Assembly: GCF_013410565.1 (NCBI RefSeq)
Contig: NZ_JACCFO010000001.1
Location: forward strand, 248,001-312,000
Reading direction: 5' to 3'
Source: Streptomonospora nanhaiensis
GTDB lineage: Bacteria > Actinomycetota > Actinomycetes > Streptosporangiales > Streptosporangiaceae
Length of the DNA: 64,000 nucleotides
This document shows, in pieces, positions 11,054 through 23,234 of this stretch (the first letter of the stretch is position 1; every line of letters begins with the position of its first letter). The notes below the pieces were generated by a model that searched no databases, was not told where the DNA came from, and was given only the letters and a program-made list of their open reading frames with translations. The position numbers and the translations under genes were made by a program.

Positions 11054-11923
11054 TCAGGGCGCCAGCGCCGGGTTGCGGATCCACTCGCGCAGTTCGGCGC
11101 GGCGGTCGGAGTCGCACTTGAGCGGGCAGGTGGTGCAGTAGCCGTGCTCGGGATCGCCCTTGTAGTCGAAGCAGCAGGTGCCCCGGACCGCCCAGGTGCC
11201 GCGCGGGTGGTTCTCGTAGAACGGGAACAGCCGGGGCCGCGCCCGGGTGACCGCGCCCGCCTCGACCAGCGCGGCGCCCAGCCGTCCGGCGCGCTCCCAG
11301 GCGGCCTCGGCGTCGCGGCCCAAAAACCGCGCGGGGTTGAGCATGTAGAAGTGCAGGGTGTCCAGGACCCAGCCCCACAGGGTGCGCAGCCCCACCCGGG
11401 TGTGGGCGTGCAGCGCCTCGATGATGGGGGAGAACGCCCGCACCATGTGCCGGGCGGCCAGCGCGTCGAGCGCGGCCTCGTCGGGCACCACCACGGAGTC
11501 GGGGTGGCCGGCGGCAGGGTCGTCGGGCAGCACCGCCACGCGCGCGCTGGTGATGGCGGGGGTGCCGAAGGCGGCGGTGGACAGCCACGGGAACCACAGG
11601 TGGCGCTCGTCCAGCAGCGGCGCCCGCCCGGTGAGGTAGACGCCCGCCGAGACCAGGAAGATCGGCTCGCGCAGCAGCGCCCGCAGGAAGTGGGTGGCCG
11701 CCGGCAGCTTGTGCGCCGGGCCGTGGTGGGCGGTGAGCTGGGTGAACAGGGGGCCCACCGCGCCCTCGGCGACCATGAGGTCGGTGCGGTACCAGTGCTC
11801 GGTGCCGGGGTGCTTGCGGGTGCGCTGCACCGTGGCGGTGCGGATGTCGGGAAGGGGGGCGAACTTCAGGGAGGCGCAGGAGTCGAGGAGCGCTTGCAGC
11901 GGGGCCTGCTGCTCTTCGCTCAT
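11054..11923 (-). CDS. fhuF: Ferric-siderophore reductase, FhuF-like [2Fe-2S] protein
   Basis: The 289-residue protein ends with the FhuF C-terminal iron-sulfur motif: Cys-Cys in RGTCCFDYKG, then Cys-x2-Cys in YCTTCPLKC. That four-cysteine pattern (CC-x10-C-x2-C) binds the [2Fe-2S] cluster, and the following KCDSDRR fits the family. FhuF-type enzymes reduce ferric hydroxamate siderophores in the cytoplasm. The preceding about 250 residues include LREPIFLVSAGVYLTG and HFYMLNPARF. It is transcribed towards the rest of the iron locus. An iron box lies about 100 bases upstream of its ATG, which supports iron repression. Together with the SIP at 8081 the locus has two different reductase types. 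Confidence 0.88.
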   Translation of the reverse strand: MSEEQQAPLQALLDSCASLKFAPLPDIRTATVQRTRKHPGTEHWYRTDLMVAEGAVGPLFTQLTAHHGPAHKLPAATHFLRALLREPIFLVSAGVYLTGRAPLLDERHLWFPWLSTAAFGTPAITSARVAVLPDDPAAGHPDSVVVPDEAALDALAARHMVRAFSPIIEALHAHTRVGLRTLWGWVLDTLHFYMLNPARFLGRDAEAAWERAGRLGAALVEAGAVTRARPRLFPFYENHPRGTWAVRGTCCFDYKGDPEHGYCTTCPLKCDSDRRAELREWIRNPALAP

Positions 11924-13032: not shown

Positions 13033-13905
13033 TCAGCGGCTCAGCCGCCGGAAGCGCCGCACGGCCGGCGGCGCGCAGAGGAGGAGGATCGCCACAGGCC
13101 AGGCCACGGCCATGGCCAGCGGGTGCTCGGCGATCCAGGAGTCCCCGGCGATGCGGGGGTTGCCGAACAGCACCCGCGCGGCGTCGATCACCGCCGAGAT
13201 CGGGTTCCACTCGGCGACGGTGCCCAGCGGCGCGGGCATCAGCTCGGGCGGGGTGAACATGGTCGAGAGCACGCCCAGGGGGAAGGCCAGCGGGTAGACG
13301 ATCAGCCCCACCACGTTGGGGTTGGGCGCCAGCACGCCCAGCAGGATCCCCACCCACGTCATGCTGAGGCGGAACAGCAGGAGCAGGCCCAGGGCGGCCA
13401 GGGCCCGGTCCCAGCCCTCGTGCCACCGCCAGTCGATGAGCAGGCCGCAGCCCACCAGCACCGCCAGTTCGGGCAGGGCGCGCAGCAGGTCGGCGGCGGC
13501 GCGGCCGGCCGGCAGCGCCGAGGGCGCCATGGGCAGCGAGCGGAACCGGCCCATCACCGCCTTGTCGACGTCCAGGGCCACGCCGCTCGCCGTGGCGGCG
13601 ACCGAGTACAGCATCGCCATCACGAACATGCCGGGCATCAGGTACTCGCGGAACTGCTCGGGGGTGCCGCCGGTGCCCTCGGCGGCCATCACGTTGCCGA
13701 AGACGAAGCCGAACAGCAGCACCATCATCAGCGGCACCAGCAGGGCCAGCAGCGGCTCGGCGGGCGAGCGCACCGAGTGCAGCAGGTTGCGCCGGGTCAG
13801 CACGGCGGTGTCGGACCAGGCGCGGGCGAACCGGCCGGCGGTGCGCGGCGCGTGCGCCGCGCGCGGGGAGCGCGGGCCCGCGGGGCGGGCGGTGGCGGCG
13901 GTCAT
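13033..13905 (-). CDS. Drug ABC exporter permease (DrrB/ABC-2 type)
   Basis: The 290-residue permease has a cytoplasmic start with WSDTAVLTRRNLLHSVRSP, then six predicted helices (LLALLVPLMMVLLFGFVFG first). The ABC-2 landmarks are EYLMPGMFVMAMLYSVAATASGVALDVDKAVMGRFRSLPMAPSAL and YPLAFPLGVLSTMFTPPELMP with VAEWNPISAVIDAAR. It pairs with the ATPase encoded just upstream; ATG 13905 overlaps the ATPase TGA as ATGA, indicating translational coupling. The substrate is unknown; the family exports anthracyclines and other hydrophobic drugs. Confidence 0.92.
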   Translation of the reverse strand: MTAATARPAGPRSPRAAHAPRTAGRFARAWSDTAVLTRRNLLHSVRSPAEPLLALLVPLMMVLLFGFVFGNVMAAEGTGGTPEQFREYLMPGMFVMAMLYSVAATASGVALDVDKAVMGRFRSLPMAPSALPAGRAAADLLRALPELAVLVGCGLLIDWRWHEGWDRALAALGLLLLFRLSMTWVGILLGVLAPNPNVVGLIVYPLAFPLGVLSTMFTPPELMPAPLGTVAEWNPISAVIDAARVLFGNPRIAGDSWIAEHPLAMAVAWPVAILLLCAPPAVRRFRRLSR

Positions 13906-14924
13906 GCCCGGGCCCCCTGCCCGGCCGGCACCGGAGCGAAGCGGGGCGCGTCCGGCACCGGCGCCGTCTCGCCGGTGTGCCCGGTGAGGCTCAGGAAGAC
14001 GTCGTCCAGCGTGGGGCGGCGCAGGCCGATGTCGGCGGCACGCACGCCGGCGGCGTCGAGTTCGCGCACCGCCCCGGTCAGCGCGGCGATGCGGTCGGCG
14101 GCCGAGACGGGGGCGCTGACGCGGCGCCGCTCGGTGTCGACGCGGGCCGCGCCGCCGCAGACCCGGCCGAGCACGGCGGCGGCGGGGCCGAGGTCGGCGG
14201 CGTCCTCCAGGACGACGTCGACGCGGTCGCCGCCCACCGCCGACTTCAGCTCCTCGGCGGTGCCCTCGGCGATCACCCGGCCGGAGTCGATCACCGCCAT
14301 GCGGTCGGCGAGCCGGTCGGCCTCCTCCAGGTACTGGGTGGTCAGCAGCACGGTGGTGCCCCGGCCCGCGAGGTCGCGCACGGCCGCCCACACGCCGTTG
14401 CGGCTGCGCGGGTCCAGGCCGGTGGTGGGCTCGTCCAGGAACAGCACCTGCGGGTCCAGCGTCAGGCTGGCCGCGAGGTCCAGACGGCGGCGCATGCCGC
14501 CGGAGTAGCGGCCCGCGGGGCGGCCGGCCGCCCCGGTGAGGCCGAAGCGCTCCAGGAGGTCGTCGGCCCGGCGGCGCGCGCCGCCTGCGCCCAGACCGCT
14601 CAGCCGGGCGAACATCACGAGGTTCTCGCGGCCGGTGAGGATCTCGTCGACGGCGGCGAACTGGCCGGTGAGCCCGATGCGCTCGCGCACCCGGTCGGGC
14701 CGGCGGGCGACGTCGTGGCCGGCCACCACGGCGCGCCCGGCGTCGGGGCGCCGCAGCGTGGCCAGGATCTCCACCGCGGTGGTCTTGCCCGCGCCGTTGG
14801 GGCCGAGCAGGGCCATCACCGTTCCCCGGGGAACGGCGAGGTCCAGCCCGTCGAGCGCCCGTGTGGCGCCGTAGCGCTTGACCAGCCCTTCGGCGGTGAC
14901 CGCGTGGTCGGGGGCGGGGTGCAT
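13902..14924 (-). CDS. Drug ABC exporter ATPase (DrrA type)
   Basis: The 340-residue ATPase has Walker A GPNGAGKT, Q-loop GLTGQFAAVDE, signature YSGGMRRRLDLA, Walker B VLFLDEPTTGLD and the H-loop position as Gln (LTTQYLEEAD), as in DrrA proteins. A DrrA-type C-terminal domain (ALTGAVRELDAAGVRAADIGLRRPTLDDVFLSLTG) follows. The start is taken at ATG 14924 (MHPAPDHAV), because an in-frame ATG at 14957 would lie inside the operator palindrome. It is the first gene of a drrAB-like operon divergent from the TetR gene at 15027. Confidence 0.93.
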   Translation of the reverse strand: MHPAPDHAVTAEGLVKRYGATRALDGLDLAVPRGTVMALLGPNGAGKTTAVEILATLRRPDAGRAVVAGHDVARRPDRVRERIGLTGQFAAVDEILTGRENLVMFARLSGLGAGGARRRADDLLERFGLTGAAGRPAGRYSGGMRRRLDLAASLTLDPQVLFLDEPTTGLDPRSRNGVWAAVRDLAGRGTTVLLTTQYLEEADRLADRMAVIDSGRVIAEGTAEELKSAVGGDRVDVVLEDAADLGPAAAVLGRVCGGAARVDTERRRVSAPVSAADRIAALTGAVRELDAAGVRAADIGLRRPTLDDVFLSLTGHTGETAPVPDAPRFAPVPAGQGARA

Positions 14925-14940
14925 GCCGCTCGCCTTCTTT

Positions 14941-14980
14941 CTGTGTATATGACACACTAATTAGTGTAAGTGATACACAG
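14941..14980. promoter_or_regulatory. Nested palindromic operator between the drug exporter and tetR
   Basis: Outer arms CTGTGTAT (14941-14948) and ATACACAG (14973-14980) are perfect 8-base inverted repeats. They share the same centre as an inner 14-base palindrome, ACACTAATTAGTGT (14954-14967). The element lies 17 bases from the ATPase start and 47 from the TetR start, so binding could shut off both promoters. It is AT-rich against a very GC-rich background. Confidence 0.82.
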
Positions 14981-15026
14981 ATCTAGGATGGAGTCAAGCC
15001 GACGGAACCGACGGGGGAGCGCGCGC

Positions 15027-15839
15027 ATGGCGACACCGGACCAGGGCGGGGCCGAGGAGCTGGAGGAACGCCTGGCCCTGCTGTGGGGTGTCCAGGAGCG
15101 GCCGAACCGCGGGCCCAAGCCCAAGCTCAGCGTGGACAAGATCGTCGCGGCGGCCGTGGCGGTCGCCGACGCCGAGGGGCTGGACGCCGTGTCGATGCAG
15201 CGCGTCGCCGCCGATCTCGGCTACACCACCATGTCGCTCTACCGCTACGTGCGCAGCAAGGAGCAGCTGGTCGTGCTGATGGCCGACGCCGCGCTGGGCC
15301 GGGCGCCCCAACCCCGCGCCGGCGCCGACTGGCGCCAGCGCATGGAGGAGCTGGTCACCGCCGTCATGGCCCTCTACCGGCGGCGCCCCTGGCTGCTGCG
15401 CCTGGACATCTCCGGCCCCCCGATGGCGCCCATGCAGCTCACCTGGTTCGACGCCTACCTGGGCGCCCTGGCCGGCACGCGGCTGTCCATGGCCGAGCGG
15501 ATCTCAACGGTGACGTTCATCGACGGCGCCTCGCGCGAGCTGGCCCGCATCGCCATCCACAGCGAGCACGCGCGCCGGCGGAGCGGGGTCAGCGCCGCCG
15601 CCGCCCTCACCTCCTACAGCCAGGCCCTGCGGCGCTTCGCCGACCCCGAGCGCTACCCCCACGTCGCGGCGGCCGCCGCCGAGGGCGTGTTCGACCCCCC
15701 GCCGGGCGCCGCCGACCCCGGCGCCGAGGAGTTCGTGGACGACATCGGCGTGGACGCGGCCTTCGGCCTGCACCGGCTGCTGGACGGCGTGGAGTCCTAC
15801 GTCCGCGCGCGCTCGGGCGCCGAGCGGGCGGACGGCTGA
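15027..15839 (+). CDS. TetR-family repressor (TetR_C_1 type) of the divergent drug exporter
   Basis: The 270-residue regulator has an N-terminal arm, then the DNA-binding domain at about residues 35-85 (LSVDKIVAAAVAVADAEGLDAVSMQRVAADLGYTTMSLYRYV), where TTMSLYRYVRSKEQL is the recognition helix region. The C-terminal ligand domain (WFDAYLGALAGTRLSMAERI) fits the TetR_C_1 group found beside drug exporters. ATG 15027 with GGGGGAG upstream is preferred over ATG 14970 or 14988, which lie in or next to the operator. By position it represses the drrAB-like operon and itself. Confidence 0.9.
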   Translation: MATPDQGGAEELEERLALLWGVQERPNRGPKPKLSVDKIVAAAVAVADAEGLDAVSMQRVAADLGYTTMSLYRYVRSKEQLVVLMADAALGRAPQPRAGADWRQRMEELVTAVMALYRRRPWLLRLDISGPPMAPMQLTWFDAYLGALAGTRLSMAERISTVTFIDGASRELARIAIHSEHARRRSGVSAAAALTSYSQALRRFADPERYPHVAAAAAEGVFDPPPGAADPGAEEFVDDIGVDAAFGLHRLLDGVESYVRARSGAERADG

Positions 15840-15852
15840 GCGGCGGGGCCCC

Positions 15853-15889
15853 GCCTCCGCCGCCCGCCGGGGCGGCGCGCGGCGGAGGC
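15853..15889. terminator. Bidirectional hairpin terminator between tetR and the JmjC gene
   Basis: Perfect 10-base arms (GCCTCCGCCG at 15853-15862 and CGGCGGAGGC at 15880-15889) lie between the convergent ends of the TetR gene (15839) and the hydroxylase gene (15938). A TG-rich simple tract (about 15905-15938) follows. Confidence 0.65.
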
Positions 15890-15937
15890 GCCCCGCGTCC
15901 GCGTCTGTGACTGTGTGTGTCGGTGTCTGCGTCTGTG

Positions 15938-17116
15938 TCAGGACAGCAGTACGAGGTGGTGGCGCACCAGCGCGCGCACCACCCCGACGGTCGCCTCCAG
16001 CGGCGTGCCCGAGCGCTCGGCCAGCTCGCCCACGGTCAGCACGCGGTCGCGCCCCAGCACCGCCAGCACCGGCTCGGCCAGCGCGGGGAACCGGTAGCGG
16101 CGGCCCGAGACCGCCACCGCCACCTGATCGCCCTCGCGCTCCAGCGCCGGAGCCAGGATCGGCACGAACTCCACGCGGGTGCCCTCGCCCGGCGCCGCGC
16201 CCTCCACCGCCCACGGCAGGGCGAACGACTGCCGCCGGGGGAACCGGGCGTCGCGCTCGGCCAGGAAGTCGTCCACACCGTGCTGCTCGGCGGCGTCGGC
16301 CAACCGCCGCAGAAGCTCGTGCCCGTGCTTGCGCCGCTCCTCGTCGGAGGCGAAGCGCGGCAGGTCCCGGCGGAACACCTCCACGTCGTGCAGCCGCTCC
16401 AGCAGCGCCCGCGCCCAGTCCATGCCGGTGGCCCGGGTGAACCCGAAGGTCAGGTGCATGCTGACGTCGCCGGTGCCGGTGACCGTGTGCCACCAGCCGC
16501 GCGGCACGTGCAGCACCTGCCCGGGCCGCAGCACGCCCTCCCACACCGTGCCCTCGGGCGGGGTGTGCGCGTGGTCGGAGTCGACCTTCATCGGGTGGGG
16601 CCGGCTGCCCTGGCCGTGCACCTGCCAGTGCTTGGTGCCCGCCACCTGCACGATGAAGGTGTCGTGGTCGTCCCAGTGGGTGTCGAACCCGTGGGAGGAC
16701 CCCCAGATCAGATACAGGTTCACCTGGGCGCGCTCGCGCACCAGCCGCATGAGGTCGTCGGTGGCCGCGCGGATGGGCGGGTGCAGCCGGTCGATGCCGT
16801 CCAGGACCAGGCTGGCGCCCTCGCGCAGCTCCCGGTAGAGGCCGTCGGGGCGGACGACCGTGCGCGCGCCGGTGGAGGCGCCGGCGGTGTCGGTGTAGCG
16901 GGCGGCCGGCACCGGAGCGCCCTGCCGGTGCAGCCGCAGCTGCGGCGGGGCCAGGCCGCGGGTGCCCAGGATCTCGTTGAGGTCCTCGAAGGTGAGCAGG
17001 TGCCGCACGGCCTCGGCGCCGATGTCGGCGAAGACGAAGTCCGACGACAGCCGCGTGGAGAGGAAGTCGTCGCCCAGGGCGGCGCGCAGCGTCTCGGTGA
17101 ACAGGCGGTCGGTCAT
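15938..17116 (-). CDS. JmjC/cupin-4 Fe(II)/2-oxoglutarate hydroxylase (YcfD/RoxA-like), probable RiPP tailoring enzyme
   Basis: The 392-residue protein has a JmjC core with the iron-binding triad visible: His147 and Asp149 in THWDDHD and the distal His210 in PRGWWHTV; GTKHWQVHG is the typical cupin-4 strand. A helical segment follows, then a C-terminal winged-helix-like domain (LAEPVLAVLGRDRVLTVGELAERSG), as in ribosomal-protein arginine hydroxylase YcfD. Members hydroxylate protein or peptide side chains using O2 and 2-oxoglutarate. ATG 17116 has GGAGG 11 bases upstream; GTG 17134 is an alternative. The gene directly follows a 37-codon peptide gene (94 bases apart) on the same strand, so that peptide is the likely substrate. 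A housekeeping ribosomal-protein role cannot be excluded. Confidence 0.88.
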   Translation of the reverse strand: MTDRLFTETLRAALGDDFLSTRLSSDFVFADIGAEAVRHLLTFEDLNEILGTRGLAPPQLRLHRQGAPVPAARYTDTAGASTGARTVVRPDGLYRELREGASLVLDGIDRLHPPIRAATDDLMRLVRERAQVNLYLIWGSSHGFDTHWDDHDTFIVQVAGTKHWQVHGQGSRPHPMKVDSDHAHTPPEGTVWEGVLRPGQVLHVPRGWWHTVTGTGDVSMHLTFGFTRATGMDWARALLERLHDVEVFRRDLPRFASDEERRKHGHELLRRLADAAEQHGVDDFLAERDARFPRRQSFALPWAVEGAAPGEGTRVEFVPILAPALEREGDQVAVAVSGRRYRFPALAEPVLAVLGRDRVLTVGELAERSGTPLEATVGVVRALVRHHLVLLS

Positions 17117-17210
17117 GGTGGGGGCGTCCTCCACTGCGGCGGCGGCCGCGGCGGACCGCCGGGGGCGGCGTCGCGCCCTCGGCGGCCCCTACGCGACCGA
17201 CTGGTGCGGT

Positions 17211-17324
17211 CTAGATGAAGTCGGAGCTGGAGTCCGTGCCGTCGGTGTCGCCGCCGGCGGTGATGTCCCGCGACGTGACCTCGGCCAGGTCCTCCACCTC
17301 GACCTCGATCTCGAAGGGATCCAT
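17211..17324 (-). CDS. 37-residue acidic peptide, candidate RiPP precursor
   Basis: The peptide begins MDPFEIEVEVEDLAEV and ends TSRDITAGGDTDGTDSSSDFI. It is strongly acidic, has one Arg (19) and one Pro (3), and no Cys or Lys. The first half resembles actinobacterial RiPP leaders: F-x-I/L-E/D motif, alternating hydrophobic and acidic residues, and a DITAG segment like the EITAG that ends many class I lanthipeptide leaders. The second half (GGDTDGTDSSSDFI) would be the core. The ribosome binding site is excellent: AAAGGAG with 7 bases to ATG 17324. It lies between a prolyl oligopeptidase gene and a JmjC hydroxylase gene on the same strand. No LanB, LanC, YcaO or ATP-grasp enzyme is nearby, so it fits no class I know. 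Confidence 0.7.
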   Translation of the reverse strand: MDPFEIEVEVEDLAEVTSRDITAGGDTDGTDSSSDFI

Positions 17325-17497
17325 AGGGGTCTCCTTTCCGTGTTGACGCTGTGGACCTCGGCGCGCCGCCGCGCAGACCCGGTGGGCCTCACGGTGTGGA
17401 CGGCGCACCGCCAACCCCCTGCCGGGGGGAGGACCGCCGCCCCCGCGCGCACCGGCGCGGGGGTGGGGCCGCCGGGGCGGCAGCCTGCCTGGGGACG

Positions 17498-19789
17498 TCA
17501 CGTCGCCTCCCGCGACCGCGCCGGCGCGGCGCCGCGCCGGCCCGGGGGACCGGCCAGCCCGGTCTGGTCGGCGGCGAAGGCGTGGGCGTCGGCGGCCAGG
17601 CTGATGGCGCGGGTGACGGCGCGCGGCCCGTGGCCGACGTCGCGCTCGTAGCGCAGCAGCACCGGGCGGTGCCCGCCCCGCGCCTGGAGCGCCGCGCACA
17701 TCTTGCGCGGGTGGGCGGCGTCGGTGCGGGTGTCGCCGTGGAACCCGGTGAGCAGCACCGCCGGGTGCCGGGCGGTGCCCTCGGCGAGCACGCGGTGGTA
17801 GGGGGAGTAGGACATCAGCGCGGCGAAGTCGGCGGGGTCGGCGGCGGTGCCGAACTCCCGGGTCCACATGGCACCCAGGCCCAGGCGCTCGAAGCGGGCC
17901 ATGTCGGCCAGCGGGGCCGAGGCGATGACCGCCGAGCACAGGTCGGGCCGCAGTGCGGCGGCGGCCAGCACCAGCAGACCGCCGGCCGAGCCTCCGGACA
18001 GGCACAGTTGGCCGCGCGAGCACCACCCGGCGGCCACGAGTTCGTCGGCGGCGGCGATCAGATCCTCGACCGCGCGCACCTTGGCGCGGCCGGAGCCGCG
18101 CAGATGCCATTCGCGGCCCCGGTCGCCTCCGCCGCGCACGTGCGCGACCGCGTAGCGCCCGCCCGCCAGCAGCCAGGCCAGCACGGTGGCGCTGAACCCG
18201 AACTGGCGCGGGCGGCCGAATCCGCCGTAGGCGTGGAGGATGGTCGGGCCGGGGGCGAACGCGGGGCCGGCGGGGACAGGGGCGGGGGCTGTTGGCCCGG
18301 TGGCGGCGGGCACGGCAGTGGAGGGCACGGCGGCGAAGACCGTGACGGGCACCCGCGTGCCGTCGGCCGAGCGGCACCACGTGGTGCGTCGGCGGATGTC
18401 GGCGGGGGGCGCGGGCGCGGTCCCGCGCGGCCAGGGCCGGGGGCGTTCGGCGCCGGGCGCCAGGGTCAGCACGCACTGCTGGGTGGCGACGTCGGCGTAG
18501 CACAGGTGGGCGCCGCCGTCCGGCTCGGCCTCCAGGCGGGTGACCATGCCCTCGTCGGGCAGCGGAAGCACGCGCAGCAGCCGGCCGTCGCGGGGGTCGT
18601 GCGCGGCGAGTTCGCTGATGCCCAACCGGGTGCGGGTGAGCAGCAGTTCGGGGGCCTCGGCCGTGCCCGCCGCCGCGAACCCGTCGAGCGTGGCGTCAGG
18701 GTCCTCGGGCACGACCTCGCGCCAGTTGGCGGTCCCCGGATCGCGCGGGTCGACGGCGCAGATCCGCCGCCGGGGCGCGCCCAGGGTGGTGCGCAGGTAG
18801 AGCATGCCGTCGGGACCCAGGTCGGGGTGGGACTCCGCGTCCAGGCCCACGTGCACGGGCCGCCAGCGGGGGCGGGCGGGACCGCCGTCGAGGTCGGCGG
18901 CGGACAAGGCGCCTGCGGCGGCGGTGGGGGCGGTGGTGGCCCCCGCGGCGTCGGTGGCTGCTGCGGCGGGGGCAGGTTCGGCGGGGCCGCCCAGGTCGGC
19001 GATCCACAGGTCGGTGCGGTGGCCCGTGCCGTGGCTCTCCGACACCACCAGCCAGCGGCCGCCCAGCAGCCGTACACCCGGGACGGTGCGCGGACCCGAG
19101 CAGGGGCGGACCAGCACGTCGGGCTCCGACCGGCCGGCCGAGACGCGGTGCAGCCACACGCCGCGCCGGCCGTCGGTGTCGTCGCGGCGCACGAAGTAGA
19201 ACGCATCGGGGGAGACCCAGGCGACGTGGGAGTAGCGGACCCCCCGGATCGCCTCCTCGACCGGCAGGCCGGAGTCGGTGTCCAGGACCCGCAGTACCCC
19301 GCGCTCGGTACCGCCCGAGGAGGTCTGCACGGCGACGCGGCGCCCGTCGGGCGAGGGCTCCCAGGAGTCCAGGGTGGTGCCGCCGCTGGGATCGAAGGCG
19401 TGGGGGTCGAAGACGGTGCGCTCGCGCGGGGGACCGGCGGGGTCGTCGGTGCCGGGGCTCAGGACGACGATGGCGGGGTGGTCGGCGCCGGCGCGGCGCC
19501 GGGTGGCGAAGACGAGGCCGCCGCGCCGCACCGGGGGAGTCCACAGGTCGGTGGCGACCAGTCGGCGGATGCGCTCGGCCAGCGGCGCGCGCAGCCGCCA
19601 ACGCGCGGCTGCGGCGGCGAACTCGCGCTCGCGGTCGGCCAGCCACTGGCGCGTGGCGGGGGAGTCGGGGTCCTCCAGCCAGCGGTAGGGGTCGGCCACC
19701 TGGATGCCGTGCACGGTCTCGACAACCGACAGCAGCGCGTTCCTGCCGTCCTCACCGGCGATGCCGTGGCGGGGGGCGGCGTTGCTCAC
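17498..19789 (-). CDS. Prolyl oligopeptidase family serine peptidase (S9)
   Basis: The 763-residue enzyme starts with the S9 N-terminal motif VADPYRWLED (residues 31-40), has a seven-blade propeller region to about residue 460, and a C-terminal hydrolase. The triad is visible: Ser601 in LSGGSAGG, Asp686 in HGDTRTD and His720 in DVGHGP. It has no signal peptide, so it acts in the cytoplasm. S9 peptidases cut short peptides and several remove RiPP leaders (for example FlaP in class III lanthipeptides). The neighbouring 37-residue peptide has a single Arg19 and Pro3 as plausible cleavage points. GTG 19789 overlaps the stop of an upstream 81-codon frame as GTGA. There are 173 bases, and probably a separate promoter, before the peptide gene. 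Confidence 0.92.
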   Translation of the reverse strand: MSNAAPRHGIAGEDGRNALLSVVETVHGIQVADPYRWLEDPDSPATRQWLADREREFAAAAARWRLRAPLAERIRRLVATDLWTPPVRRGGLVFATRRRAGADHPAIVVLSPGTDDPAGPPRERTVFDPHAFDPSGGTTLDSWEPSPDGRRVAVQTSSGGTERGVLRVLDTDSGLPVEEAIRGVRYSHVAWVSPDAFYFVRRDDTDGRRGVWLHRVSAGRSEPDVLVRPCSGPRTVPGVRLLGGRWLVVSESHGTGHRTDLWIADLGGPAEPAPAAAATDAAGATTAPTAAAGALSAADLDGGPARPRWRPVHVGLDAESHPDLGPDGMLYLRTTLGAPRRRICAVDPRDPGTANWREVVPEDPDATLDGFAAAGTAEAPELLLTRTRLGISELAAHDPRDGRLLRVLPLPDEGMVTRLEAEPDGGAHLCYADVATQQCVLTLAPGAERPRPWPRGTAPAPPADIRRRTTWCRSADGTRVPVTVFAAVPSTAVPAATGPTAPAPVPAGPAFAPGPTILHAYGGFGRPRQFGFSATVLAWLLAGGRYAVAHVRGGGDRGREWHLRGSGRAKVRAVEDLIAAADELVAAGWCSRGQLCLSGGSAGGLLVLAAAALRPDLCSAVIASAPLADMARFERLGLGAMWTREFGTAADPADFAALMSYSPYHRVLAEGTARHPAVLLTGFHGDTRTDAAHPRKMCAALQARGGHRPVLLRYERDVGHGPRAVTRAISLAADAHAFAADQTGLAGPPGRRGAAPARSREAT

Positions 19790-20031
19790 CTGAGACCGAG
19801 GGGTCGGGCAGCGGGGCCGGTGAACGCGCCGGGAACGGCGCGAGTTGCCGGAGACGCGGGAGATGCGGCCGCGGGCGGCGCAGGGGGCGCAAGAGGCGCG
19901 GCGAGGGCGGCTGCGGGAGGTGCTGCCAGGGGTGATGCGAGAGGTGCAAGTGGTGCGGGGGCAGAGCCAGGGCGACGGTTGCGCACAACCACATACTTCA
20001 AGCGGCGGTTGGTGCCGGTCAAGTGAGTCAT
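19786..20031 (-). CDS. Possible 81-residue Pro/Ala-rich ORF coupled to the peptidase gene
   Basis: The reading frame begins MTHLTGTNRRLKYVVVRNRR and continues as a Pro/Ala-rich stretch with about 20 prolines, ending PARPLGLR. Its TGA overlaps the GTG start of the prolyl oligopeptidase gene (GTGA), the form usual for translational coupling, and the peptidase has no other ribosome binding site. Against it: no ribosome binding site before ATG 20031 and codon third positions less GC-rich than in neighbouring genes. I recognise no family. It could be a leader frame, a second peptide substrate, or chance. Confidence 0.25.
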   Translation of the reverse strand: MTHLTGTNRRLKYVVVRNRRPGSAPAPLAPLASPLAAPPAAALAAPLAPPAPPAAASPASPATRAVPGAFTGPAARPLGLR

Positions 20032-21020
20032 GACTGGCACAAGGTCACGAAAAAATGTCGGCAAGGGACGTTTGTGGCAAAAGTGAGCAGTGCGGCAGGC
20101 GAGGTGGGGGATGGTGGTGGGGCTTGGGGCGGGGTGATGATCGGTTCCCGCAGTGGGTGGTCGGAGCGGTGACGTGGCGCCGAGGGCGGCGGGTGGCCGG
20201 GATGGGCGGTGATCGGCTCCCGGAGCCGGGGCGGAGGTTGTGGCAGCCGGGGTTCGCGGCCGGGCCGGGGTGGGGCGACGGGCGGTCGGCGCGCGGCAGG
20301 GCCGGCCGGTGGGGCAGGCGGCAGCTGCCTGACGCCCCAGCAGGCGGCTGGGCCGTCGACGAGTCGCATCCTCCTGGGCCTTCCGACTCGCCCACAGGGC
20401 AGAACGGACACCGAACCATCCAGGTCTCATACGGTGAGACGAAGACGCCACCTCTCGCGACGGTCTGCGGTCCACGGTCACCGGATTCGCGAAAAACCGC
20501 AGATCGTCGTCCGCGAGAACGGGTGAACCGTGCATATGGCCGCCGGAGCGGCGCTGTTGTCTCGGTATATGAGACACGGGCTGATCATGCCGCCCGTCGG
20601 GGTGTGGTGGGGCGGGCAAATGCAAGCGTTTTTCGGGCAAGTTCATCAAATCGGAGGCCTGTATACATTGTCATCCCGATTCCCGTCTCCTGCGCGCCGC
20701 AACCTGCGCTCGGCATCGGGTTGCCGCGTTTTCCGGCGGCCGCCGCGCCGTCGGAGACCTTGACCACCACGTCCGGGGCCCGCTGGTTGCCCCGCCCGGC
20801 CCCCGACCGCCCTCGTCGTCGCCCGTTCCCGTGGCCGGCGGGTTCGGCGACCGCCTGCCCGGCCGCCCGTGTGCCCTCGCTGCCTCGTCGGGGCGGTGCG
20901 TCGCAACCGGCCCTGCCGCTGCGCGCCGCACCGGCACCCGCTCGCCCTTGGTGCCCGTCCCCGTCCTTGGCGTTCTCCGTCTCGTCGCCACGCCCCCGCG
21001 TGCCGCTCGGCCGGGCGGTG
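20032..21020. other. About 1 kb without a confident gene, partly low GC
   Basis: No frame here has recognisable domains or a good ribosome binding site. Two stretches (20032-20140 and 20400-20700) are visibly less GC-rich than the surroundings and contain A runs and TA-rich words such as TGTATACA (near 20661). On the minus strand a frame around 20420-20530 reads PVLADDDLRFFANPVTVD; a similar DDDLRF segment occurs in the low-GC stretch at 45100-45380. I take the region to be promoter DNA plus decayed or foreign sequence. Confidence 0.5.
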
Positions 21021-21914
21021 TCAGCGGGTCGCCGACGGGCCGGGCCGGTGCTGCGAGGCGGGGGCGGTGCGGCGGGTGGCTGTGGCGGGGGCGGTGCGGG
21101 TTTTCGCGGGGCCGAGGCCGGTGCCGCCGCGCAGGCCGGTGCGAGGCCGGGCCTTCGGCAGTCCTTTCAGCAGGTCGGCGGTGTCGCGGACGGAGATCTC
21201 CAGCGGCCGGGGGGTGAGTGCGGCCACGGAGGCGCTGTAGCCGTCACCGGCCGCGACGTCGAGCAGTTGGACGTGGCCGGGGGCGGGACCGTTCGGCGTG
21301 TCCCAGGAGTGGACCGCTATGGGGGCGCCCGGGGGCGAGACGACCACCTTGGTCGCCGCGGCGAGCCCCTCGCCCGTTGCCTTGACCAAGGCCTCCTTGC
21401 GCGACCAGTAGGTGAAGAAGTCGGCCTCGCGCTGCCGCGGGTCGAGTCGGGTGAAGTGGCCGCGTTCGTCCTCGTGCAGCAGTTGGCCGAGGAGGCTGTC
21501 GACTCCCATGCGGACGGTCCGGACCTCCTGCACGTCGGCGCCCACCTGCACACCCCGGGCCATGGCCAGCAGGACGCGGTCTCCGGAGTGGCTGAAGGAG
21601 ATCTCCCACCCCTCGGCCGGGCCGCTGGGCCGGGGCTTGCCGCGCGGACCCCGGCCGGGCGGGTCCGCCTTGCCTTGACGGGGAGTGCGGAGGTGGTCGA
21701 AGGTCACCGACTCCGGCGCGATCCCGGCGGCCCGCCCCACCGCCAGGCGGGCGAGCCCGTGGGCCAGCGCGTAGCGGTCCTTGTCGGCGGGGACGCGGAA
21801 GGCGGCGTGCCGCTGCCGCTCGTCGGCGTCGAGCAGGCCGTACAGGGCGCGCAGTCGGTCGGGGGAGGTGGCGGTGAGGTCGCCCCACCACAGATCGCAC
21901 GTCAGGGGAGTCAC
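21021..21914 (-). CDS. Sfp-type 4'-phosphopantetheinyl transferase, copy 1
   Basis: The 297-residue enzyme would transfer phosphopantetheine from CoA to the Ser of carrier proteins such as the NRPS carrier at the left edge. It shows EISFSHSGDRVLLAMA, the metal-site motif GADVQEVR and FFTYWSRKEALVKATGEGL (Glu of KEA, catalytic Lys). Where most Sfp enzymes have Asp-x-Glu, this copy has Asp-Val-Gln followed by Glu. Start is GTG 21914 (VTPLTCDLWWGD), shared with copy 2. The last about 45 residues are a basic, low-complexity extension (LPKARPRTGLRGG onward) absent from copy 2, suggesting that the original stop was lost. Confidence 0.9.
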   Translation of the reverse strand: MTPLTCDLWWGDLTATSPDRLRALYGLLDADERQRHAAFRVPADKDRYALAHGLARLAVGRAAGIAPESVTFDHLRTPRQGKADPPGRGPRGKPRPSGPAEGWEISFSHSGDRVLLAMARGVQVGADVQEVRTVRMGVDSLLGQLLHEDERGHFTRLDPRQREADFFTYWSRKEALVKATGEGLAAATKVVVSPPGAPIAVHSWDTPNGPAPGHVQLLDVAAGDGYSASVAALTPRPLEISVRDTADLLKGLPKARPRTGLRGGTGLGPAKTRTAPATATRRTAPASQHRPGPSATR

Positions 21915-22078
21915 GGCCCTATTGTGGCGCGACTCCACGCAAACCGCGCACTCAACACAAATCCCCACATTCCTACTTGTGTCGACCGCTCGATCGGCCG
22001 CCGTTCGCCGCGCCGCCTCGGACCCGCGCGAGCGCCCGCCCGTCTGGGTGCGCGGCCGTGGGCGGGCGCGTGCGGCGG

Positions 22079-22831
22079 CTACCGCAACAGCTCGGCCGCG
22101 TCGCGGACGGCGATCTCCAGGGGCCGGGGAGTCAGTACGGCCACGGCCGCGCGGTACTCGTCGCCGGCGGGGATGTCGCGCAGGTGGACGTGGCCGGGGG
22201 CGGGGGCATCGGGCGAGTCCCAGGAGCGGACCTCGATGGGCGCGCCCGGCACCGAGAGGGTGACGGCGGTCAGGTTGCCGACCCCTTCCCCGGTGGCCTT
22301 GAGCAGGGCCTCCTTGCGCGACCAGTAGGTGAAGAAGGCGGCCTCGCGCTCCTGCGGGCCGAGCGCGGCGAGGTCGGCGCGCTCGCCCTCGGTCAGCGCG
22401 TGGTCGAGGAGGCCGTCGAGGCTGGCGCGCAGCGACCGCACCCGCTCCACGTCGGCGCCCACCCGCACACCCCGGGCCATGGCCAGCAGGACGCGGTCTC
22501 CGGAGTGGCTGAAGGAGATCTCCCACCCCTCGGCCGGGCCGCTGGGCCGGGGCTTGCCGTGCGGCCCCCGGTCGGGCGGGTCCGCCTTGCGTTCGCAGGG
22601 AACGCAGCGGAGGTCGAAGGTCACCGACTCCGGCGCGATCCCGGCGGCCCGCCCCACCGCCAGGCGCGCGAGCCCGTGGGCCAGCGCGTAGCGGTCCTTG
22701 TCGGCCTGCAGGCGGAAGCGGGCGTGCCGCTGCCGTTCGTCGGCGTCGAGCAGGGCGGACAGGGTGCGCAGTCGGTCGGGGGAGGTGGCGGTGAGGTCGC
22801 CCCACCACAGGTCGCACGTCAGGGGAGTCAC
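22079..22831 (-). CDS. Sfp-type 4'-phosphopantetheinyl transferase, copy 2
   Basis: The 250-residue copy has the normal family length and canonical motifs: EISFSHSGDRVLLAMA, the Mg-binding GADVERVR (Asp-x-Glu) and FFTYWSRKEALLKATGEGV. It begins at GTG 22831 with the same VTPLTCDLWWGDLTATSPDR as copy 1. Its CPWxx-like insert DLRCVPCERK (near residue 75) replaces a cysteine-free segment in copy 1. It lies 164 bases upstream of copy 1 on the same strand. Being canonical, it is the more likely working enzyme for NRPS activation. Confidence 0.93.
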   Translation of the reverse strand: MTPLTCDLWWGDLTATSPDRLRTLSALLDADERQRHARFRLQADKDRYALAHGLARLAVGRAAGIAPESVTFDLRCVPCERKADPPDRGPHGKPRPSGPAEGWEISFSHSGDRVLLAMARGVRVGADVERVRSLRASLDGLLDHALTEGERADLAALGPQEREAAFFTYWSRKEALLKATGEGVGNLTAVTLSVPGAPIEVRSWDSPDAPAPGHVHLRDIPAGDEYRAAVAVLTPRPLEIAVRDAAELLR

Positions 22832-23063
22832 CGCCCCATTGTGGCCCGGCCCCGCCGGGACCCGCCACGGTGGACGCCCGCCCGGCTGTTTCCCGCCGAC
22901 TCCGGCTGATTTCGTCCGGTAACGGCCGGGGTCCGCCGCAAACGACTCGCCCGACCGGGGCATGAAACCGCCCCGCACCGGGCATCGACTCCTATGACCC
23001 CTCCGGTGCGAGGCCGCCTTCACCGCGACGTCGCCGGTCAGCCCGCTCACCAGGGAGGCCCTC

Positions 23064-23234
23064 GTGTCCATCATGGTGCTGTTCGGTATTGGGACACTCG
23101 TCATACTCGGCGTGCTCATCACCCTCTTCGTGCTCGCGTTCGTCGTCCGCGGCCCCGCTCTTGAGGACGACTCCACGGCCGACGACGACACCATCGACCG
23201 CTCGTTCCACACCCATGGAGTGCATTTCGGCTGA
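23064..23234 (+). CDS. 56-residue single-helix membrane protein
   Basis: GTG 23064 follows GGGAGG (23053-23058) by 5 bases. The peptide begins VSIMVLFGIGTLVILGVL and continues as one long hydrophobic helix (residues 3-28), then VRGPALEDDSTADDDTIDRSF and a short tail HTHGVHFG. It therefore has one membrane segment and an acidic tail. I do not recognise a family. The gene stops 67 bases before the DeoR gene and could be co-transcribed with it. Codon choice is less extreme than in neighbours. Confidence 0.6.
   Translation: MSIMVLFGIGTLVILGVLITLFVLAFVVRGPALEDDSTADDDTIDRSFHTHGVHFG

Follow-up and report, generated by a model that had tools for sequence, protein, structure and literature searches.

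What is made by a locus in which a gene for a 37-residue peptide stands between the genes of a prolyl oligopeptidase and a JmjC oxygenase? Such a locus is present in the genome of Streptomonospora nanhaiensis, in a stretch of 64,000 nucleotides (contig NZ_JACCFO010000001.1, positions 248,001 to 312,000) that was analysed as a whole and is here called the window. All coordinates below are those of the window unless another locus is named. A first-pass annotation had proposed that the peptide is the precursor of a ribosomally synthesized and post-translationally modified peptide (RiPP), and this proposal is partly supported here. The locus is probably a RiPP pathway of minimal size that represents, in the Nocardiopsaceae, a large and apparently undescribed family centred on JmjC enzymes, and Asp residues in the core of the peptide are probably hydroxylated.

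Parts of such a pathway are known already, namely JmjC or related enzymes that hydroxylate RiPPs and an S9 leader peptidase; the peptide family is apparently undescribed. No description of it was found in the full-text literature searched, a search that leaves most subscription journals outside. If this reading is true, a single pairing of enzyme and peptide marks out a RiPP family that reaches more than one in five of the actinobacterial genomes sampled (at least 67 of 296). JmjC chemistry would then include ribosomal peptides rich in Asp, and a leader-binding domain common to both would connect the ribosomal oxygenases with RiPP enzymes. The system would be easily tested, since two or three genes suffice.

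The peptide gene and its conservation

The genes of the S9 peptidase (17498..19789), the peptide (17211..17324) and the JmjC enzyme (15938..17116) follow one another in that order on the minus strand, and 94 nucleotides separate the peptide stop from the JmjC start. A ribosome binding site, AGGAG (17331..17335, minus strand), lies 6 nucleotides 5' of the peptide ATG. The coordinates, single strand, gene order, gap and good ribosome binding site had all been given correctly in the first-pass annotation. The peptide has the sequence MDPFEIEVEVEDLAEVTSRDITAGGDTDGTDSSSDFI. It contains no Cys and is matched by no model of Pfam (E 0.01) or NCBIfam (E 10). Its leader-like part (residues 1-19; 17268..17324, minus strand) has a variable start followed by the acidic and hydrophobic EVEVEDL and by V-T-S-R. 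The core-like part (residues 20-37; 17214..17267, minus strand) has the pattern D[IVLT]TAG..D.DG.D.SSDFI.

The peptide is present in 13 of 60 genomes, its own genome counted, and JmjC orthologues of 68-100% identity occur in exactly those 13. The next-best JmjC proteins in the 60 genomes are at most 44% identical to that of the window. The order and strand of the S9, peptide and JmjC genes are unchanged in the contexts of the 13 genomes, where one peptide (L054) fell under the tblastn cut-off and was placed by a separate peptide search. In one locus (L056) the S9 gene is split in two pieces.

Named genomes were scanned as well and yielded 80 loci, of which 50 are orthologous to the window locus. 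Nearly all of the 50 come from Streptomonospora, Nocardiopsis, Thermobifida, Marinactinospora and like genera, which we take to be members of the Nocardiopsaceae; a few are from metagenome-assembled genomes, and one is in a record titled Glycomyces fuscus. The peptide lies directly 5' of the JmjC gene in 49 of the 50. In the sole miss (L119) the JmjC gene starts at contig position 79 and the contig end cuts the locus. The first-pass annotation had allowed for a peptide frame that relatives do not keep near their JmjC genes, and these loci speak for conservation.

The 37-residue peptide is a real gene. V-T-S-R is kept in all 50 compared peptides, as is Thr-Ala-Gly, of which Ala23 is invariant. 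Asp26, Asp28, Gly29, Asp31, Ser33, Ser34, Asp35, Phe36 and Ile37 are identical in the 41 distinct cores of the same length, and four further loci have a core with one extra Gly. Over the last 23 codons of 41 distinct coding sequences, the proportions of synonymous and nonsynonymous differences are 0.295 (pS) and 0.036 (pN), dN/dS is 0.097 and 17 of the 23 positions never vary in amino acid, in a set collected with a pattern that itself fixes many core positions and that caught 46 of the 50 peptides (49 relatives and the window). Since the core pattern and the search for the extra Gly together recover all 50, no divergent peptide was left out. The leader-like and core-like halves stand in sharp contrast in their variability. 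The near-invariance of the core fits a conserved job, perhaps in metal handling, as a cofactor or as a signal, better than it fits a variable antibiotic.

A short precursor gene thus adjoins the gene of a candidate modifying enzyme, and the two are co-inherited and co-diverge, as is expected of a RiPP locus. Membership of a named class, above all that of FxLD-type class I lanthipeptides, is extremely improbable and was rejected. The N-terminal F-E-I-E does resemble FxLD, which is listed as a lanthipeptide motif in a passage of PMC12710340, but the Phe before VTSRD is kept in just 17 of the 50 orthologous peptides. The peptide has neither a model match nor a Cys, and no dehydratase, cyclase, LanB or LanC was found with Pfam among the ten window proteins scanned. 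An RNA element was rejected for lack of any Rfam match in positions 15000-21000.

Related peptides across Actinobacteria

The combination of a small peptide and a JmjC enzyme extends well beyond the window's branch. Among 296 actinobacterial genomes sampled, 96 have a JmjC protein that matches the profile of these enzymes at E <= 1e-30, and 72 of the 96 were examined for peptides (the other 24 are mostly weaker matches). By the patterns of the peptide classes, an Asp/Gly-rich small peptide is encoded directly 5' of the JmjC gene in 67 of the 72 genomes, compared with none of 349 control genes; one of the five misses (G075) is a contig edge. A strict composition rule detected an Asp-rich small open reading frame (ORF) with a ribosome binding site 5' of 112 of 154 distinct JmjC anchors, a set from which L119 was dropped as an edge case and which does not include L046-L058 and L162-L169. 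The same rule detected none at 386 control genes, which are long genes of these loci other than the JmjC gene. Several of the 42 anchors that fail it visibly hold a peptide (e.g. L094, L126 and L144). Classes and composition rule were defined after the peptides had been inspected, and the controls were scored by the same rules.

The branch of the window is class A, and peptides of other kinds occur outside it. In three Pseudonocardia loci (class P; JmjC 51-55% identical) the peptide ends in DNDGxDxxSDF[VI], and no S9 gene was found in these three. All 27 distant loci of the named-genome scan (JmjC 33-38% identical) have an upstream ORF of 40-53 residues with a ribosome binding site, and their peptides typically end in SDGGSTGVSDTND, SDNTGGKSDMNDT or similar. 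Among 40 further loci, 36 have a typed peptide, mostly longer and made of ADGG, DGGADGT or DGDATDG words. Class B peptides were found in all five Streptomyces plasmid loci examined. Of 87 typed peptides, 82 contain the D-G motif and none has a Cys among its last 35 residues, a composition that favours chemistry at Asp and speaks against the formation of thioethers or thiazoles. No precursor that was tried reached the cut-off of a Pfam or NCBIfam model; one class D repeat has chance-level NCBIfam matches to adhesins, far below cut-off.

Peptide class follows the phylogeny of the enzyme. On a tree of 98 JmjC proteins, 88 of them with a typed peptide, the peptide class needs 9 changes, the least possible being 7; with shuffled classes the mean is 55.5 changes and none of 200 shuffles was as low as 9. 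Class A is sister to the Pseudonocardia class. The tree holds a chosen subset of loci, without rows covering fewer than 280 model positions and with no proven ribosomal oxygenase, and its long branches make the deep joins unsure. Two loci inside the class D clade (L223 and L224) have peptides of another make, PEL[SA]GADL...PT[VI]EPGA, 5' of the JmjC gene.

These distributions bear on the alternative that the JmjC protein does housekeeping work as a hydroxylase of ribosomal proteins, next to a small peptide gene unrelated to it. The closest solved folds of the enzyme, NO66, MINA and YcfD, are in its favour. On the other side, peptide and JmjC gene co-occur genome by genome and remain adjacent, the type of peptide tracks the enzyme clade, and such peptides are absent from both sets of control genes. 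Clustering with peptide-free housekeeping enzymes, which the first-pass annotation had named as a possible outcome, is not what the tree shows; the window enzyme groups with peptide-linked JmjC proteins, in a tree with only 10 rows lacking a typed peptide and no proven ribosomal oxygenase. We consider the housekeeping explanation highly improbable.

The genome of the window itself holds a further piece. At G000:C1:5096623-5096817 (L076 9926-10060) a JmjC fragment is followed by a segment that by eye resembles the end of the class B aldo/keto reductase. This may be a remnant of a second, class B locus.

The JmjC enzyme, the peptidase and a proposed maturation

The JmjC protein is a JmjC_2 (RoxA/NO66-like) 2-oxoglutarate oxygenase of 392 residues that matches PF08007 at E 7.9e-24 (84 bits against a cut-off of 22). 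The metal triad reported in the first-pass annotation is intact: H147-x-D149 and H210 are invariant in 13 orthologues. An AlphaFold2 model of the protein has a pLDDT (predicted local distance difference test) of 90.1, and Foldseek places NO66 (4cck, E 2e-22), MINA53, YcfD and YxbC closest among solved folds. The C-terminal 97 residues (296-392; 15941..16231, minus strand), folded alone, form three strands and then three helices (pLDDT 89). The winged helices of NO66 and MINA head the Foldseek list of this domain. Weaker matches follow to RiPP recognition elements (RREs) or proteins of that type, namely ThcOx, TbiB1 with leader, TruD, PqqD, McbBCD, PbtF and lasso B1, with E from 0.01 to 0.4, none under 0.001 and most ranked below NO66 and MINA. 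By its predicted fold the domain thus resembles the ribosomal-oxygenase winged helix and, to a weak degree, RREs. A related JmjC protein, that of L077, also matches PF20514 (ROXA-like_wH).

Several known enzymes resemble this one in part. RoxA/YcfD, NO66 and MINA53 share the JmjC domain, the winged helix and PF08007 with it, but are only about 20% identical, and the enzymes of the window type have an adjacent small peptide. This linkage argues against a role of the window JmjC in hydroxylating ribosomal proteins. A survey (PMC12710340) reports RRE-like folds on PF08007 proteins and places the closest bacterial homologues of fish and algal proteins in RiPP-like contexts; the passages cited neither name a precursor peptide nor assign these proteins a family or a chemistry. 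BipG and PbsQ, JmjC or related cupin-like enzymes of biphenomycin-type RiPPs, are described as hydroxylating ribosomal precursors (PMC12707348, PMC12257519). In those accounts they act on ornithine made by an arginase, in clusters with multinuclear non-heme iron-dependent oxidative enzymes and B12 radical S-adenosylmethionine enzymes. By comparison of descriptions rather than sequences, the window differs in that no modifying enzyme besides JmjC is seen at the locus and the peptide core is rich in Asp, Gly and Ser.

The S9 protein (763 residues, GTG start) is a candidate leader peptidase. It matches PF02897 (E 5e-46) and PF00326 (E 1e-37) and has the propeller, catalytic domain and Ser-Asp-His triad of S9A prolyl oligopeptidases. 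As the first-pass annotation had noted, the triad is intact; S601 (in GGSAGG), D686 and H720 are invariant in 10 aligned orthologues. The closest structure is a prolyl endopeptidase (2bkl, E 2e-116), presumably that of Myxococcus. The best oligopeptidase B in the PDB reaches E 3e-44, and the curated oligopeptidase B model NF007511 gives 87 bits against a cut-off of 1313.

An S9 gene is present in all 49 orthologous named-genome loci with upstream DNA, the same 49 that have the peptide. More widely, S9 matches were obtained in 62 of 155 loci checked, all of class A (about 55 different loci, seven being apparent duplicates). None was found in 92 loci outside the class A branch within the flanking DNA examined, nor in L119, which the contig end cuts. 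Homologues of the peptide are found beside JmjC genes, but the pairing of JmjC with S9, about which the first-pass annotation had asked, is no rule for the family; the peptidase is an add-on of the window's branch.

The site of cleavage was also proposed differently before, after Arg19. Enzymes of the prolyl oligopeptidase type prefer Pro before the cut and accept Ala less well. The peptides of the window's branch have no conserved Pro, Thr-Ala-Gly is kept in all of them, and an Arg at a position like that of Arg19 is kept in classes that lack S9. For these reasons, and given the prolyl-endopeptidase-like S9, a cut near Ala23 appears more likely, and an oligopeptidase-B-like cut after Arg19 less likely. 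The nearest described case is the S9 prolyl oligopeptidase FlaP, which is implicated in class III lanthipeptide maturation (PMC10885120). It too belongs to a RiPP locus and, according to that account, cuts after Pro, which the window peptide does not conserve.

We propose the following maturation. The RRE-like C-terminal domain of the JmjC protein would hold the leader of the 37-residue precursor, and the double-stranded beta-helix domain, with Fe(II) and 2-oxoglutarate, would oxidise the C-terminal core. The most likely chemistry would be beta-hydroxylation of at least one Asp in the D-x-D-G-x-D-x-S-S-D motif. Asp is favoured as the target because it is the residue common to all peptide classes, with D-G in nearly all typed peptides. 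The S9A peptidase would then remove the leader, more likely near Thr-Ala-Gly than after Arg19.

The JmjC enzyme may act on the peptide and yet yield something other than hydroxy-Asp, by desaturation, decarboxylation, crosslinking or backbone cleavage at D-F-I or Ser/Thr. RiPP 2-oxoglutarate enzymes are reported in PMC12636437 to make a Cys-Tyr crosslink and to cleave the backbone oxidatively, and in the core of the peptide Asp is no more constant than Ser, Phe and Ile. The macrocyclase of Xia et al. 2025, as told there, is likewise a 2-oxoglutarate enzyme of a RiPP pathway, but it joins Cys to Tyr and the window peptide has neither residue. Since BipG and PbsQ, the JmjC-type RiPP enzymes, are reported to hydroxylate, and Asp is what the classes share, we give these other products a minor but appreciable chance.

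Several points weigh against the proposed pathway. Neither a terminator nor a sigma-70-like promoter pattern was found at the locus, which bears on joint transcription of the genes. The RRE matches are weak and are listed together with unrelated chains, and the winged helix is one that ribosomal oxygenases also have. Ribosomal oxygenases of the JmjC fold are named His or Arg hydroxylases and the core has neither residue; JmjC RiPP enzymes in print act on ornithine, not Asp. Ten of the 98 tree rows lack a typed peptide, although inspection by eye shows a candidate in three (L073, L080 and L213). The coincidence of Thr-Ala-Gly with S9 amounts to one evolutionary event. In the peptidase genes, matches are spread over two or more frames in 5 of the 62 S9 loci. 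When a long frame with three motif words was strictly required, 51 of the 62 qualified; among the 11 that fail, L090 and L093 have GGSTGG in an open frame, and L056 and L103 have short S9 frames.

Neighbouring genes

A gene for a TetR-family regulator (14970..15839, plus strand) is convergent with the JmjC gene and adjoins an ABC transporter gene (13902-14957, minus strand). The pair (13902-15839) lies between the JmjC and FhuF-like genes here and in many relatives, not all. The regulator is probably not part of the unit, and the two genes are perhaps an exchangeable insert.

Regulators elsewhere in the family raise the question of whether the mature peptide is a signal that one of them senses. 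On a Streptomyces plasmid (L077 5342-6670) a tetratricopeptide-repeat regulator of the NsdA family (NF053720, E 4e-47; the only plasmid regulator scanned) is divergent to a class B peptide. XRE-type regulators, assigned by reading without a family scan, occur near 16 of 36 class B and 3 of 11 class C loci. No such regulator is among the ten window proteins scanned, however, and TetR adjoins the JmjC gene in part of the relatives only, so that sensing appears improbable.

An FhuF-like [2Fe-2S] protein (11054..11923, minus strand) is encoded 3' of the JmjC gene on the same strand and is a possible accessory. It meets the Pfam cut-off for FhuF_C (PF11575, E 1e-6) and gives 28 bits with TIGR03951, under the cut-off of 63.85. 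The protein accompanies 45 of the 50 orthologous loci, and four of the five misses have less than 5 kb of downstream DNA. Among 41 genomes it was found in the 11 that hold the peptide, which form one clade. Of the distant loci searched, only L061 has it. Because it was found outside the window's branch in that one locus only, the FhuF link may be mere synteny. L061 (9404-11607) has a JmjC frame that seems interrupted; a peptide lies upstream of it and the FhuF-like gene immediately downstream.

Other classes have other neighbours. A sucrase/ferredoxin-like protein, which we assume to be a [2Fe-2S] protein, is encoded at most 80 nucleotides downstream in 16 of 35 class D loci, near the JmjC gene in the other orientation in all three class P loci and near it in 3 of 11 class C loci. 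Classes B and C together have an aldo/keto reductase in 16 of 47 loci and a kinase-like protein in 37 of 47, the latter name resting on a Pfam APH match below cut-off in one class B member, with no match in the class C member scanned.

Proteins of the [2Fe-2S] type near some loci of classes A, C, D and P, and the class D Asp/Gly repeats (DGGADGG), which resemble metal-binding low-complexity protein, would suit a peptide that is not matured and serves as a small acidic metal-binding or regulatory partner of the JmjC enzyme. The contrast between leader-like and core-like halves, the adjacent peptidase of class A and the RRE-like domain on the enzyme point the other way and make this quite improbable. 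For a matured peptide, a broader and tentative proposal is a pan-actinobacterial RiPP class whose sole common maturase is an RRE-bearing RoxA-like JmjC enzyme. It might place beta-hydroxy-Asp in D-G motifs, from short cores to DGGADGG arrays, as iron ligands that the [2Fe-2S]-type neighbours reduce or release; the products would be ribosomal hydroxy-Asp metallophores. The iron link through these neighbours is only a lead.

Two tandem genes resembling phosphopantetheinyl transferases (21165-21926 and 22079-23212) lie 5' of the S9 gene on the same strand and encode products 74% alike over 254 residues. The idea that the peptide, with its G-x-D-S, is a carrier protein for them was dropped because most Nocardiopsis loci have no phosphopantetheinyl transferase match within 5 kb upstream. 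In several relatives the gene is single.

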